Source of the DNA: a bacterium | Lineage (GTDB): Bacteria; Patescibacteriota; UBA1384; JAMDBS01; DAOVQR01 | Assembly: GCA_030628575.1 (NCBI GenBank) | Contig: DAOVQR010000042.1 | Coordinates: 1-6,389, forward strand | DNA length: 6,389 nt | Direction of reading: 5' to 3' | Shown: piece by piece, positions 281 through 6,345 of the stretch | Position numbering within the stretch: position 1 is the first letter of the stretch | Layout: each line of letters begins with the position of its first letter | The notes under the pieces: model-generated | Seen by the model: the letters and a program-made list of their open reading frames with translations, nothing else | The model's database searches: none | What the model was told of the DNA's origin: nothing | Program-made: the position numbers and the translations under genes

Positions 281-473
281 AATGCTTTGAGAAACTGATA
301 AGCCGAGTTCTGTTTAAACTACCATCTATCTAGGCGTTGAGATCTGTGGACATCTAAGCGAGAAACTTATTGATGATGATCAGACCCACTCAACTTGCAC
401 TACATAGGGGTTACACAGACGATTGTTGCCAATCGAACGCGTGTGCTCTTACCACACGATTTCAACCTTACCT

Positions 474-649
474 CGCGCACAGCGCGAAAGCACCAAATAA
501 CAAGCACCAAATAACAAATAATTTTTAATATTCAATTTCCAATTTCCAAAATGTTTTGAAATTTTTATTCTGGCTTATTGAATTTTGCTAATTGTAATTT
601 GTTTGACATTTGGGATTTGAAATTTGGGATTTCCGTGCTATGCACGGTG
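474..649 (-). repeat. AT-rich repeat insertion in the P8/P9 region of rnpB
   Basis: On the minus strand the RNA runs from the conserved AAACCGCC to the conserved AGGTAAGG. These are normally separated by a hairpin of roughly 15-25 nt, but here the gap is 176 nt. The extra sequence is AT-rich and repetitive. On the plus strand ATTTGGGATTT occurs at 608-618 and 622-632, CAATTTC at 533-539 and 540-546, and AGCACCAAATAACA as a 14-nt tandem duplication at 489-502 and 503-516. A GC-rich hairpin lies at each side: CCGTGC/GCACGG at 633-647 and CGCGC/GCGCG at 474-486. No useful reading frame was seen. It looks like a dispersed low-complexity repeat that landed in a tolerant stem-loop. Confidence 0.75.
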
Positions 650-754
650 GGCGGTTTATTTTCTGTTGCCCTATACCCTCGTCTTGCGACGGCCACGTTT
701 GCACGTGGTATGCTACTCTAAAGTGCTCGGACTTTCCTCCCAGCACCCTTGAGA

Positions 755-1003
755 TTACATAATTCCGATTCTTTTTTTAAGCATTGCGAGTCCCTTTCCA
801 TATTGTTTCAATTTTTTTTCTCTAATCAACGCATATTTTTTTATTGAATATGCTTCGTAGTAAATCAGTTTCCAAGGAACTCCTGCTTTTGTTGCAATTG
901 ATTTTTTGGAATTATGATCTTGAATTCGTTGTTTTAAGTTAGCCGTATAACCAATATAACATTTACCATTTTGATCGCTTTTAATCAGATAAATATAATA
1001 CAT
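755..1003 (-). CDS. GIY-YIG endonuclease encoded inside the RNase P RNA
   Basis: This 82-aa protein is a complete minimal GIY-YIG nuclease of the small UPF0213/COG2827-like type. The two motif strands are YIY (residues 3-5) and YIG (16-18). The catalytic arginine is probably R26 in LKQRIQDHN, with H30 nearby, and the metal-binding glutamate is probably E62 in REKKLKQYGK. No DNA-recognition domain follows. The ATG at 1003 is chosen because AAGGA lies 5 bases upstream; an in-frame TTG at 1021 lies inside the P3 arm and would add six residues. The TAA stop begins the 3' arm of P3. The gene has the same strand as rnpB and no visible promoter of its own, so it would be translated from the RNase P precursor. 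It may be a homing-type nuclease, but its target is unknown. Confidence 0.85.
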   Translation of the reverse strand: MYYIYLIKSDQNGKCYIGYTANLKQRIQDHNSKKSIATKAGVPWKLIYYEAYSIKKYALIREKKLKQYGKGLAMLKKRIGIM

Positions 1004-1013
1004 ACGAATCCTT
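1004..1013 (-). promoter_or_regulatory. Ribosome binding site in the P3 loop
   Basis: On the minus strand AAGGA (1013-1009) lies 5 bases before ATG. Only its first A belongs to the P3 arm, so the site is exposed in the loop immediately after the helix. This decides the ATG start at 1003 over the upstream TTG. Confidence 0.7.
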
Positions 1014-1061
1014 AATCTCAAGGGTGCTGGGTAGTAGTTTCAATTTCTCAAAACATTAAGT

Positions 1062-2685: not shown

Positions 2686-4173
2686 ATGAAACATAATAAA
2701 ATTGAAAAGAATAATCAAAAATTCTTACCTTTATATGCAAGAGATTTACCTCCTTTGCCAATAATACTTTTAGTTCACGCTTATACAAAAAATTTTGAAA
2801 ACGTCATTGGAGACGAATGGGAAACTTTAATACAAACTATAAAAAATGGTTATAGTACATGGTATTTTGGGGATCAAGATCTTAAAAAATTAGGACAAAG
2901 GAGCTTAGATTTATGCTATAAGGATAATGATTTTTTATTAAAACTTAATAAAAAATTTCTAATATTGACCCAAAAATTTTTATTAAAAACTAAAAAGTTT
3001 GGAAAAGAAGACTATACTATTATAAGCGATCAACAATTAAGTCAAATGTTAGATAAATATTGTAAAAAATATGAAATTATTTCTGCTTATGGGGAAATTG
3101 TGCCGTTTTGTCTAGAGGTTGCTTTAACGGAAAAACTTAAATCATATTTAAATAAAAATTTTTCTGGGATTTCTAAAGAAAATAGAGATTCAATATTTTC
3201 GACTCTTTCTGCTTTTTCAGATATATCTTTTGTTGCTCGAGAAGAACTGGATTTATACAAATTAGCTTTTAAATCTAAAAGACAACATAAAATTTTATTA
3301 GAAAAACATTATCAAAAATATTTATGGGTACCTTTTGATTATGTAGGTCCTACTTGGACTATAGATTATTTTAAGTCTCGATTAAACGAGATTATTAAAA
3401 TTCCAAAGCGAGAAATTATAAATAAAATTGATGGACTGGAAAATAAGGGAGAAGAATTACAAAAAGACCAGCAAATAATAATCAAGAAATATGATATTCC
3501 AAAGGATATTATACTAAAATTTAAATTTTTACAGCAATGTGGTTGGCAATTTGATCAAAAAAAAGAATATTTATCTCAATCACATTATCGGCTATCTTTT
3601 TTATTAAAAGAAATAGCTAAAAGATTAAAAATTGATTTTTCTTTAATGTACTATGCTTTACCAAAAGAAATTATTGAATCATTGAATAATAAAAAAAATA
3701 TTAACAATTTATTATTAGAGAGTAGAAAAAAAGATTCATTTATTATCTCACAAAATGGAAAATCATTGTTTTTAAATAAAGACGAACAAAAAAAGTGGCT
3801 TCCTTACATTGAAACTAAAAAGAAAAGTGCCAAGACAAAAAAGAAAGTTAAAAAAGAAGCAAAAGGGTTAGTTGCCTTTCCGGGGAAAATAGAGGCAAAA
3901 GTAAGTTTAATATTAACGCCTCGCCATATTGGAGATATGAAAAGAGGAAATGTCTTGGTTACACCAATGACTTCGGTTGATTTTGTGCCAGCAATGAGAT
4001 TGGCTTCTGCCATAGTTACTGACATGGGAGGCATTACATCACACGCAGCCATAGTTTCTCGAGAATTAAAAATCCCCTGTGTTGTGGGAACAAAAGAAGC
4101 AACAAAAATATTTAAACATAATGATAAAGTTGAAGTTGATGGCGATAAAGGAATTGTTAAATTAATTACATAA
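2686..4173 (+). CDS. PEP-utilising mobile (phosphohistidine) domain protein
   Basis: This 495-aa protein has a clear C-terminal swivelling domain (about 394-495) of PEP synthase/PPDK enzymes. It includes [17 protein letters not shown] (421-437) and the phosphohistidine motif [17 protein letters not shown] (448-464) with H453. In the full enzymes this histidine carries phosphate between an ATP-grasp domain and a PEP/pyruvate barrel; neither is recognisable here. A Lys-rich linker (377-393) separates the domain from a long, mostly helical N-terminal region. That region holds a patch reading [18 protein letters not shown] (207-224) and a segment [18 protein letters not shown] (299-316), reminiscent of other stand-alone PEP-domain proteins. 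It is first in an apparent operon, 29 nt before the kinase-hydrolase gene and upstream of PEP synthase. The substrate is unknown. No membrane segment was seen. The gene is very AT-rich. Confidence 0.82.
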
Positions 4174-4202
4174 TTTTACTTATTCTAATTTAATAGGAAA
4201 AT

Positions 4203-6068
4203 ATGACTAAAAAACAATTTATAATTAATAAAAAGAATATTGCGCAATATTTAAAGAGCCAGAAGACCAGTTTAAAAATTAGTAAGGTTAATCAGATCAA
4301 GGAAGTAATTAAAAATAGTGGCTCATGTTTTATTTTTAAAGCCACGATTAAAGCTAATAATAAATGGCAGAGCATTGTTATTAAACAGGCACAAGATTTT
4401 CTTAAAATTGATCCTTCATTCAAATTATCACCTAAAAGATTAAAGTGGGAATATGAAGCATTAAAATATTTTAGTTCAATTAGTAAAAAAAAGGTTTTGC
4501 CAAAAGTATTATGGTACGATGATAGAAATTATATTCTTGTACTGACTAATATTCAAGGTAGTACAGGAAAATTACTAAGGGAAGAAATAGAAAAAGGGAA
4601 GCTACATCCTGAAATTATGAAAAATTTCGCTGAACTATTGGCTGAATGGCACCTACTTTCATACAATAAGAAGGTTAATCTTGGTATTAAAAGTGATAAA
4701 CAATTCACAAAAGAATGGTCATCTTATCTGAAGAATGAAATCATTAATGATTTTTATACCGTAGGCGCAAGAAAGATTACCGTAAATAGTATAGTAGACG
4801 AACTTCTAGAAGAAAGTAAACAGACCCCATCTGCTATTATTTGGTTAGATCCGCTTCCAAAAAATATTTTTGTAGACAAAGGAAAATTTAAATTAATTGA
4901 TTTTGAAACAGCTGTCAATTGGGATATTGCTTGGGATGCAGCTATATTTATATCGGACTGGGTTATAGAATTATCTAATGTCGATAAAGGAATAGTTGTT
5001 AATGCAAAAAAGTGTGTTAGACTTTTTTTAGATACTTACATAAAAAGGATATCATTACATTTATCAGAAACTGAATTATTAGCAATGAAGAAAAGAATAT
5101 ATCGATATTTAGGTATATTTTTATTACATAGGACCAATGGAGTTGATAATTATAAATTTGAAAAACAAAGATACTTACGAATTCAAACAGAGGCTTTGAG
5201 ATTAATACAAGAATTATACGCCAATGATTTTGCCAAAGATTTAGTTGCACTTTTAAATATTAATCACGATTTTGTTCAAGAGGAAATCAGTTTTAAAAGT
5301 AAAGAATATACACTAAAAGGAATTTTACAAATACCAAAAATAAAAAGTAACAAAAGAATTGCTGTTGTTATTTACATACATGGAGGAACAGATAGAGGTA
5401 TGTTGGGTTCACCAGCAATATTTGAAATATCTGATATATTATTAAAACAAGGAATTGCATTATTTCGTTTTAATCTTATAGGTACAGATAATAGTGATGG
5501 TTTATTATGTGATAAAACTTGGGAAAGACTTGAAGATAATTTTCATCAAGCAATAAAAATCATAAAAAAGGATAAAAGATTTTGTGATATAGGGTTGATT
5601 GGTAGAAGTTATGGTGCAACTTTAATAGCTGCTAATGCAGATCAAAAAGATATACAAGCAATGGTTTTACAAAATCCAATTTTTGACGAGTGGTATGAGT
5701 TTATTCATTTGCTGCCTGAAATGACCAAGGATTTTATAAAAAATCCACATCAAAAGTTTTTGATTTTAGGAAAAGAAAAAAAAGAACACATAAAAGGAGA
5801 TTATAAATTTAGTTCAGAGATTATTAAGCAGTTTCCGATTGAAAAATGGAGAATGATGCAATCTTTGTCTAAGTCAAATAATATCTGCATTATTCAAGCT
5901 GAAAATGATCCAGAAACAACGCCAGAACACGCTAGAATTATATACAATATGACACAACAGCCAAAAGAATTTCATATTATTAAAGATACAGTTCATAAAT
6001 TTCCCAATAAAGAAAAAGAAGTAGCAAATATTACAGCTAAGTGGTTAATTTCACATCTAAAGGAGTAA
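4203..6068 (+). CDS. Fusion of APH-like kinase and alpha/beta hydrolase
   Basis: Two enzymes are joined in 621 residues. Residues about 25-340 look like an aminoglycoside-phosphotransferase/choline-kinase fold: probable ATP lysine K61 (IVIKQA), helix-C glutamate E83, a hinge at 111-117, a catalytic-loop D216-x4-N221 (WLDPLPKNI) and metal-binding D233 (LIDFE). The usual His of HxD is Trp214 here. Residues about 357-621 are an alpha/beta hydrolase: YIHGG (391-395) for the oxyanion hole, nucleophile S469 in GRSYGA, acid D569 in AENDPETTP, and H598 in DTVHKFP. Both catalytic sets appear intact apart from the Trp. AGGA at 4195-4198 precedes ATG by 4 nt. It is the middle gene of the operon; the next ribosome binding site overlaps its end. 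Kinases of this fold phosphorylate small molecules; the substrate here is unknown. Confidence 0.82.
   Translation: MTKKQFIINKKNIAQYLKSQKTSLKISKVNQIKEVIKNSGSCFIFKATIKANNKWQSIVIKQAQDFLKIDPSFKLSPKRLKWEYEALKYFSSISKKKVLPKVLWYDDRNYILVLTNIQGSTGKLLREEIEKGKLHPEIMKNFAELLAEWHLLSYNKKVNLGIKSDKQFTKEWSSYLKNEIINDFYTVGARKITVNSIVDELLEESKQTPSAIIWLDPLPKNIFVDKGKFKLIDFETAVNWDIAWDAAIFISDWVIELSNVDKGIVVNAKKCVRLFLDTYIKRISLHLSETELLAMKKRIYRYLGIFLLHRTNGVDNYKFEKQRYLRIQTEALRLIQELYANDFAKDLVALLNINHDFVQEEISFKSKEYTLKGILQIPKIKSNKRIAVVIYIHGGTDRGMLGSPAIFEISDILLKQGIALFRFNLIGTDNSDGLLCDKTWERLEDNFHQAIKIIKKDKRFCDIGLIGRSYGATLIAANADQKDIQAMVLQNPIFDEWYEFIHLLPEMTKDFIKNPHQKFLILGKEKKEHIKGDYKFSSEIIKQFPIEKWRMMQSLSKSNNICIIQAENDPETTPEHARIIYNMTQQPKEFHIIKDTVHKFPNKEKEVANITAKWLISHLKE
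6061..6065 (+). promoter_or_regulatory. Ribosome binding site overlapping the hydrolase gene end
   Basis: AGGAG sits inside the last codons of the upstream gene and 10 nt before ATG 6076, with only 7 nt between the two reading frames. This suggests translational coupling. Confidence 0.75.
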
Positions 6069-6075
6069 TAAAAAG

Positions 6076-6345
6076 ATGTCAGAATTTATTAAATCATTTA
6101 AGCAACTAAATAGTAAAAATGTTAATATCGCCGGCGGCAAAGGTGCTTCTTTAGGTGAGATGACCCACGCCTTTAGTAAGGCGGGGCAAGCTCAAGCAAA
6201 TCCTATTCCTCCCGGTTTTGTAATTTTGGCCAATGCTTTCGATAGATTTCTTTTGGAGACCCCACTTCGCCAAGGCTTCGAGGGGCAAGCTGATTTAGAT
6301 GTTACTGTTCAGGCAGAGTTAGACAAGATTAATTATCAGGATTAG
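6076..6345 (+). pseudogene. ppsA: PEP synthase N-terminus, interrupted (partial at window edge)
   Basis: The first 89 residues match the start of PEP synthase, which makes phosphoenolpyruvate from pyruvate and ATP. FIKSFKQLNSKNVNIAGGKG and ASLGEM give the signature of the ATP-binding (PPDK_N) domain with K22. PIPPGFVILANAFDRFL (43-59) and DLDVTVQAELDKINYQD (73-89) also fit. The frame then hits TAG at 6343-6345, far short of the roughly 750-800 residues of the family. Two repeat-derived in-frame inserts are present, at about residues 36-42 and 62-72. After the stop, another frame reads ANTVEGLRH from 6362, which could continue the protein if the 19 nt at 6343-6361 are extra. It could also be the edge of a larger insertion. 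The bases are more GC-rich than in the two genes before. Identity is sure; whether it is broken is less so. Confidence 0.7.
6178..6291 (+). repeat. Two copies of a short repeat inside the PEP synthase frame
   Basis: Copy A (6178-6192) is AAGGCGGGGCAAGCT. Copy B (6272-6291) is AAGGCTTCGAGGGGCAAGCT, the same with five extra bases. Both are read in the same frame over GGGCAAGCT, giving Gly-Gln-Ala. Both fall where PEP synthases are normally compact: before PIPPGF, and between the FLLET helix and DLDVTVQAEL. They look like mobile repeat fragments tolerated within the protein. Confidence 0.6.

Follow-up and report, generated by a model that had tools for sequence, protein, structure and literature searches.

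A probably mobile GIY-YIG nuclease element with ends predicted to pair as the P3 helix of a bacterial RNase P RNA

What is a nuclease gene doing in the middle of rnpB, the gene for RNase P RNA, and how did it come to be there? The question is raised by a 6,389-nt stretch of a draft patescibacterial genome (hereafter the window), where the original prediction placed a GIY-YIG nuclease gene inside the P3 loop of RNase P RNA. We argue that a 293-bp GIY-YIG element bounded by terminal inverted repeats (TIRs), itself likely mobile, sits at the P3 place, and that its ends are predicted to pair as the P3 helix; taken as a whole, we consider this account probable. A broader proposal, that such elements form a hitherto unrecognised class of bacterial transposon, one that needs only its GIY-YIG nuclease to move and that settles in essential structured RNAs by replacing their helices, we hold with about equal belief and doubt.

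The host gene and its insert

A covariance-model search identifies the host as a type A bacterial RNase P RNA: the Rfam model RF00010 matches the minus strand from 772 to 286 at 134.7 bits, against a curated gathering threshold of 100, and this is the one match in the window's genome (an 823-kb draft of 145 contigs, 68% complete with 3.2% contamination). The Rfam alignment carries the rnpB 5' end into the terminal part of the nuclease gene, where many of the pairs are non-standard; automatic rnpB annotation in such genomes can misplace the 5' end. The 5' partner of the rnpB 3' end is found beyond the nuclease gene, where a 20-pair P1 run, wobbles included, extends from 1059 to 1040 (longer than the 14 bp first proposed), its last base, 1040, competing with P2. 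P2 itself has the seven base pairs claimed for it (AAACTAC with GTAGTTT). With the nuclease gene between their strands, P1 and P2 close the two ends of rnpB, and between P2 and AGGAAAGTCC the position of P3 is taken by the 19-bp perfect repeat, a layout that bears out the nested arrangement (Table 1). An unconstrained RNA fold of 284-1060 (minus strand) recovers both P1 and the P3 stem, with a z-score of -8.8 over a background of only 20 shuffles. The consensus promoter that had been described upstream is present as a TTGACT-17-TATAGT site, but such sites are not above chance as a class (five in 200-1250 versus 3.3 +/- 1.9 in shuffles) and constitute weak evidence on their own.

Table 1. Features of rnpB and of the element inside it, in window coordinates
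Feature	Position	Strand	Basis
rnpB, whole, with the element inside	279-1059	minus	RF00010 and P1; exact RNA ends inferred from P1
Promoter-like site TTGACT-17-TATAGT	1062-1090	minus	upstream of rnpB; 10/12 matches
P1, 5' strand	1041-1059	minus	pairs with 279-297; also in unconstrained fold
P2, 5' strand AAACTAC	1034-1040	minus	pairs with 316-322; in unconstrained fold
Whole 293-bp GIY-YIG element, TIR to TIR, at the P3 place	739-1031	minus	repeat search
P3 5' arm, left TIR CCCAGCACCCTTGAGATTA	1013-1031	minus	19-bp perfect repeat
Putative ribosome binding site AAGGA	1009-1013	minus	sequence only
GIY-YIG nuclease gene, 82 aa from ATG, stop included	755-1003	minus	ORF and PF01541
P3 3' arm, right TIR TAATCTCAAGGGTGCTGGG	739-757	minus	19-bp perfect repeat; stop codon at its start
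Conserved region I of rnpB (AGGAAAGTCCG)	728-738	minus	RF00010 match; adjoins element directly
P2, 3' strand GTAGTTT	316-322	minus	sequence; in unconstrained fold
P1, 3' strand, after CGGCTTA	279-298	minus	pairing with 5' strand

Read from the ATG at 1003, the open frame of the nuclease gives 82 aa (88 aa from a TTG at 1021), the ATG standing 9 nt after the 5' arm and the TAA stop (757-755) opening the 3' arm, at the base of the loop as predicted; AAGGA at 1013-1009 is a candidate ribosome binding site. The protein matches PF01541 (GIY-YIG) at 62 bits against a cut-off of 22.6, and both motif tyrosines, the arginine and the glutamate of the superfamily are present. Y5, Y16, G18, R26 and E62 (also E50) are invariant among 17 aligned members, in agreement with the earlier remark that the nuclease has its catalytic residues; which glutamate is the catalytic one we judge from the alignment with 1zg2. 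Structure prediction gives one compact domain of 82 aa (pLDDT 94), and this predicted fold leaves no space for an additional, DNA-binding domain. The closest solved folds according to Foldseek are 1zg2 (UPF0213, E 7e-4) and 7cq3 (Slx1, E 5e-3), with weak likeness to the I-TevI structures 1ln0 and 1mk0 (E 0.06-0.1). DNA cleavage and transposase activity of the nuclease are putative, as is activity of the insert-bearing RNase P RNA on pre-tRNA.

No intron family reached its gathering threshold in the seven of nine filled loci that were scanned (the window, L163, L165, L166, L167, L169 and L187, with L116 and L128 outside the scan). We therefore set aside a group I or II intron, and find the gene in neither a self-splicing intron nor an intein, as would be expected of a homing endonuclease gene unless it were free-standing with a target allele, a form that is conceivable here.

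Two other stretches of the window deserve mention in their own right. P12 of the same rnpB (490-630, minus strand) holds an AT-rich insert, some 140 nt long and containing short repeats (caccaaataacaa), which has no ORF and lacks the TIR type of the P3 element. Positions 2686-6345 carry, one after another, a protein with a PEP-utiliser mobile domain, an ORF that combines kinase-like (APH) and hydrolase domains, and the start of an ORF with a PPDK N-terminal domain; by their sequence these look like parts of a split PEP synthase.

Recurrence at P3 and the inverted repeat

A homologous GIY-YIG ORF lies in P3 in nine genomes: G000 (the window's), G036, G047, G078, G143, G241, G252, G258 and G317. 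Eight of them belong to an even draw of 379 genomes from the phylum, which holds at least that many such cases and in which rnpB was matched in at least 350 and the nuclease in at least 258, and the ninth comes from a survey of the class (rnpB matched in 46 of 55 genomes); P3 copies make up six of the ten best nuclease matches listed in the phylum survey. Each of the nine, among them one- and two-contig assemblies that are 99-100% complete, yields exactly one rnpB match, where a second rnpB would have told against the original prediction. A gene for RNase III is present in all nine and one for the RNase P protein in seven, the latter missing only in drafts at 64 and 68% completeness.

The nine elements measure 286-315 bp, contain no gene besides the GIY-YIG one, and abut with their TIRs the P2/P3 linker and AGGAAAGTC. 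Six of the nine frames are undamaged and run from start to stop within the P3 loop; the ORF of G047 is antisense and broken, that of G258 is broken, and that of G078 is without its stop. Between the ORFs of G317 and G241, pN is 0.13 and pS, which is saturated, 0.76, a comparison that points to selection on the nuclease protein in this pair.

A search of the same 379 genomes for TIR-like P3 arms gave ten matches, seven of them filled, and missed filled G258; a reversed control pattern gave none. G268 and G392, although matched, have ordinary short P3 stems on inspection, and G042, with a short ORF-less TIR stem at P3, was not counted as filled. In the class of G241 the pattern matched two of 49 genomes, both already known cases. 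We also located P1, which could be matched over at least 10 bp in 78 of 101 rnpB sequences (20 gave 7-9 bp only and three none). In 58 of the 78 it lies within 60 nt of AGGAAAGTC, in ten at 61-250 nt and in ten beyond 250 nt, these last being the nine filled genes and L021, whose match at -447 we take as chance. An occurrence of AGGAAAGTC in L005, from a genome with one rnpB match, is likewise taken as chance, and L023 was rejected as an rnpB-linked insertion, its ORF lying downstream of rnpB.

Relatives with P1 near GAGGAAAGTCC, which might have cast doubt on the nested arrangement, do exist, but those of the same genus are the empty form of the same gene. Such empty rnpB genes with a short P3 were compared for three of the nine filled genomes: G216 shares with G252 an identical 13-nt P1 strand and core pieces that are 94.7 and 95.6% identical, G112 is the empty relative of G078, and G213 and G324 are those of G317. 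The window's own empty allele was not found because its family and order hold no other genome.

Does the 19-bp repeat belong to the host or to the insert? Among 121 distinct GIY-YIG ORFs (80 loci from named records, the best 80 of 117 relatives, plus the survey loci), 59 are enclosed by an inverted repeat with a score of at least 14, while 62 are without a strong enclosing repeat. For comparison, such a repeat appears in three of 121 cases in the best of eight shuffles each, and none of 121 other ORFs lies inside one. The TIRs of the window's clade follow the consensus CCC[CA][GT]CAC.., with CAC near the TIR end in 32 of 37 TIR-bearing members versus none of 22 others, and TAG in none of the 37 versus 20 of the 22. 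These TIR classes were named after the arms had been seen; we added a motif-free test, in which TIR similarity again follows the nuclease tree (0 of 2000 shuffles). The window's CCCAGCACC is found again at L181 and L183, and the same TIR type surrounds related nucleases in 23S rRNA, in 16S rRNA, between genes and in protein genes. Because related nucleases carry it outside RNase P, the 19-bp repeat of P3 is, judged by its sequence, the element's own TIR, of the kind that insertion sequences and transposons possess, and with the TIR common to other loci a plain host stem is ruled out.

Across the nine copies, 99.3% of 144 cells in the P3/TIR arms are paired, and 12 of 16 P3 pairs have undergone two-sided changes, a level that none of 500 shuffles reaches; paired changes of the TIR could, of course, also arise if the DNA repeat alone were under selection. 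The ends of the element take the place of other RNA helices, too. A scan of 98 rnpB loci found ORF-less TIR hairpins at P12 in G143, G252 and G036, as well as in G042, where the assignment is by position; at P3 they occur in G042 and G005. In G226 one such hairpin replaces the 4-nt linker before ACAGAACC that is present in G094 of the same genus. A copy with an ORF lies in the apparent P12 of L063, a diverged rnpB with no match over the Rfam threshold. Further relatives are found inside 23S rRNA (L036, L037, L039, L042, L044 and L175 according to Rfam, L183 by likeness of its flanks only) and inside 16S rRNA (L172 and L113, which overlap Rfam matches, and L185 and L168, whose flanks resemble 16S). 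As in rRNA intervening sequences, complementary ends close the insert in a peripheral helix, and the likeness to those of 23S rRNA that was drawn at the outset is a good one.

The wider set of loci offers some additional observations. At L128 (G036) the element's 3' end occurs a second time (TTATAGCACGAAGGGTGCGGG), immediately downstream of rnpB, and the P3 regions of L122, L125, L212 and L215, 114-201 nt long, hold inserts with neither a GIY-YIG ORF nor a window-type TIR. A second TIR class (CCCCGTAG.. or CCCGTTAG..), often with TATG direct repeats, surrounds related GIY-YIG genes at L079, L082, L094, L097, L073 and others, including loci in records whose titles name Scalindua or other non-Patescibacteria. 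Three further GIY-YIG genes are present in the window's genome, on contigs C93, C98 and C77 (L002, L004 and L005); none of their nucleases falls in the window's clade with good support and none was seen with its TIR. A tRNA gene has its 5' end about 70 nt or less from where the GIY-YIG ORF stops in 15 of the 80 named loci (L048, L050, L053, L054, L060, L064, L074, L077, L080, L092, L100, L102, L104, L105 and L106), at L092 at the 5' end itself; these tRNA genes are mostly 84-91 nt long, that is, Leu- or Ser-like. A tmRNA gene lies about 170 nt or less from the ORF in six of the 80 (L055, L061, L066, L083, L085 and L091).

Likely movement and descent of the nuclease family

Exact 4-bp direct repeats stand directly outside the TIR in 15 of 39 copies outside RNA genes (8 of 17 in the window's TIR clade and 7 of 22 outside it), where chance, at 1 in 256, would give about 0.15; the remaining 24 are without a perfect repeat. 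Twelve of the 15 are at the expected boundary and three one base out, with none at five other offsets. (ORFs with a matched domain shorter than 60 aa were excluded from this count, from the trees and from the TIR-class tests.) At L056 (1989-2300) and L181 (1480-1779), elements sit at the same Gly-Phe-Thr codons; TTTA is duplicated in both cases, and once joined, the flanks are open for 261 and 146 aa; we take the host genes to be pilin-like. Hairpins of 35-140 nt with the same TIR and without an ORF also occur, some flanked by TTTA and some in tandem. The family therefore looks likely to be mobile outside RNA genes. Target-site duplication is a feature of these non-RNA copies and not of P3: none of 19 RNA-gene copies, P3 included, has a 4-bp direct repeat, so that insertion in RNA genes is not seen to work as it does elsewhere. 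At L049, L041 and L038, ORF-less TIR hairpins are clustered or in tandem with TTTA between them, in the manner of REP or MITE sequences.

Do the P3 copies then descend from one insertion? A quick tree of 119 rows unites all nine P3 rows and the P12 row in one 43-row branch (SH-aLRT 83), which also holds seven 23S-labelled, three 16S-labelled and many non-RNA copies. In a careful tree of 41 rows and 83 columns, built without L002 (very long branch) and L187 (broken ORF), the constraint of a single P3 lineage for its eight P3 rows is rejected (AU p 0.012), and the starred branches cannot be reconciled with fewer than five changes of the P3 label. The P3 row of G252 pairs with a copy of G235 just after 16S (100/99), that of G047 with L040, which is the same copy as L164 of G042 (96/87), and those of G317 and G241 with a non-P3 copy of G160 (96/94). 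With 83 columns and several long rows, the case that the P3 nucleases are not one lineage is suggestive, not final. The P3 label also clusters, with 5 changes versus a shuffled mean of 8.8 in the quick tree (0 of 500 as low) and, less clearly, 6 versus 7.4 in the careful one (53 of 500 as low). Vertical descent, or homing from one rnpB allele to another, may therefore have played some part. L171 (G160), the copy nearest the P3 trio, is intergenic and lies in a structured-looking stretch that ends in a terminator-like hairpin; its surroundings gave no Rfam match over threshold, and the stretch is possibly an unknown RNA.

Site-specific homing is the alternative that comes off best. Imagine that the nuclease cut an empty P3 and that repair from a filled allele copied the gene in, the TIR being the tip of the P3 stem carried along, just as intron-borne homing endonucleases spread. 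That the element recurs precisely at P3 in nine genomes from several families would fit this scenario, as would the P3 trio of one family (G317, G241 and G258), close empty and filled alleles within one genus, the moderate clustering of P3 rows and the lack of a 4-bp repeat at RNA sites. Single-site homing is nevertheless not favoured, because the P3 nucleases do not appear to be one lineage, because an 82-aa protein has no room for the DNA-binding domain of a homing endonuclease, and because the non-RNA copies have 4-bp target duplications. The same TIR type, moreover, occurs at sites unrelated to rnpB, and one P3 copy is antisense. With a single P3 lineage rejected, we discard rnpB-only homing as the main mechanism and regard site-specific homing as unlikely overall, although part of the P3 spread could reflect homing after a first insertion and local homing may take place among rnpB alleles. 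The original suggestion of a homing element that uses a tolerant stem-loop in place of a self-splicing intron is thus right about the intron, while the stem has turned out to be a TIR.

Alternatively, the TIR hairpins might be a REP- or MITE-like family moved by another enzyme, with the GIY-YIG gene as cargo or repair helper. ORF-less hairpins with the same TIR, some of them in tandem arrays, would be expected in such a family, and transposition by a lone GIY-YIG enzyme was not found in the open-access literature, nor is any known to us. Yet the TIR type tracks the nuclease clade, no other gene is found in the nine P3 elements, and the P3 nucleases of G317 and G241 appear to be under purifying selection, so we judge this scenario improbable. 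We give still less credence to a domesticated regulator, kept in rnpB for the benefit of RNase P or of tRNA processing: six of the nine P3 loops hold an intact ORF and pN is low relative to pS in one pair, but the gene is patchy (at least 8 of 379 in the phylum sample), absent from same-genus relatives, decayed in G047 and G258, and has relatives at many other sites. Finally, an assembly artefact or dead spare rnpB copy, conceivable in a contaminated and incomplete 145-contig draft, has next to no probability, since the same junctions recur in eight other genomes, including one- and two-contig assemblies at 99-100% completeness, and the stems keep pairing through two-sided changes.

How, then, might a transposon moved by its own GIY-YIG nuclease work? 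The nuclease would cut TIR ends or hairpin-like targets and so drive movement, a link between enzyme and movement that we draw by association only. The TIRs would become P3 or P12 of RNase P RNA or stem-loops of rRNA, and insertions in RNA genes would last only at peripheral helices where the TIR rebuilds a helix. Direct repeats would be missing there if the old stem was lost after insertion or if the hairpin was exchanged by recombination. The nuclease would be made from the rnpB transcript: RNase III is predicted to cut the long P3 stem, which would set the nuclease mRNA free and split the RNase P RNA into two pieces joined by P1 and P2.

Known elements and the meaning of the P3 insert

GIY-YIG ORFs have been reported in non-intron insertions of CPR rRNA genes (Tsurumaki et al. 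2024, PMC11270868), most rRNA insertions being at the top or base of stem-loops, and in the authors' judgement the GIY-YIG ones do not spread by homing. Those insertions are in rRNA only, with no occurrence of RNase P or rnpB in the main text, and, unlike the present element, the passages concerned describe no TIR, target duplication or helix replacement. CPR RNase P RNAs whose helices are greatly extended, and rnpB genes that escape detection at standard thresholds, have been described as well (Lui et al. 2021, PMC8172020), in a main text where GIY-YIG does not occur. In line with the original prediction, we found no GIY-YIG gene in a bacterial RNase P RNA in the open-access literature, which takes in few subscription journals and no preprints, and no bacterial GIY-YIG element with TIRs and target duplication. 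GIY-YIG insertions in CPR rRNA are therefore known, whereas the RNase P host, the TIR, the direct repeats and the proposed replacement of P3 appear to be undescribed in that literature.

Intervening sequences of 23S rRNA have complementary ends that form a stem, sit at the tip of a peripheral helix and may carry an ORF, of the 23S-IVP (four-helix) type in known cases; cutting by RNase III without ligation has been described. The present ORF is instead GIY-YIG, its host is RNase P RNA, and its TIR is common to copies in protein genes and intergenic DNA. With homing endonucleases of the I-TevI type (1ln0, 1mk0) the nuclease shares its catalytic fold and the situation of a mobile gene in an essential RNA gene, but it is without an intron, a separate DNA-binding domain and a single-site lineage. 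As for its nearest structural neighbours, Slx1 cuts branched DNA, and to our knowledge neither UPF0213 nor Slx1 is mobile with TIRs. REP/RAYT systems and MITEs provide a further parallel in their palindromic ORF-less copies beside a nuclease-bearing family; unlike REP/RAYT, the present enzyme is GIY-YIG and not a Y1 transposase, and 4-bp direct repeats are present.

If our reading is correct, an essential ribozyme carries a mobile gene in its sole detected copy, with the ends of the element serving as one of its helices. This would explain how mobile DNA can enter RNA genes that must not be broken without recourse to self-splicing, and RNase P RNA would join the hosts of such elements. GIY-YIG enzymes would acquire a likely role as the only enzyme that mobilises an element in bacteria, and the idea of an RNase P RNA that naturally consists of two pieces would become testable.
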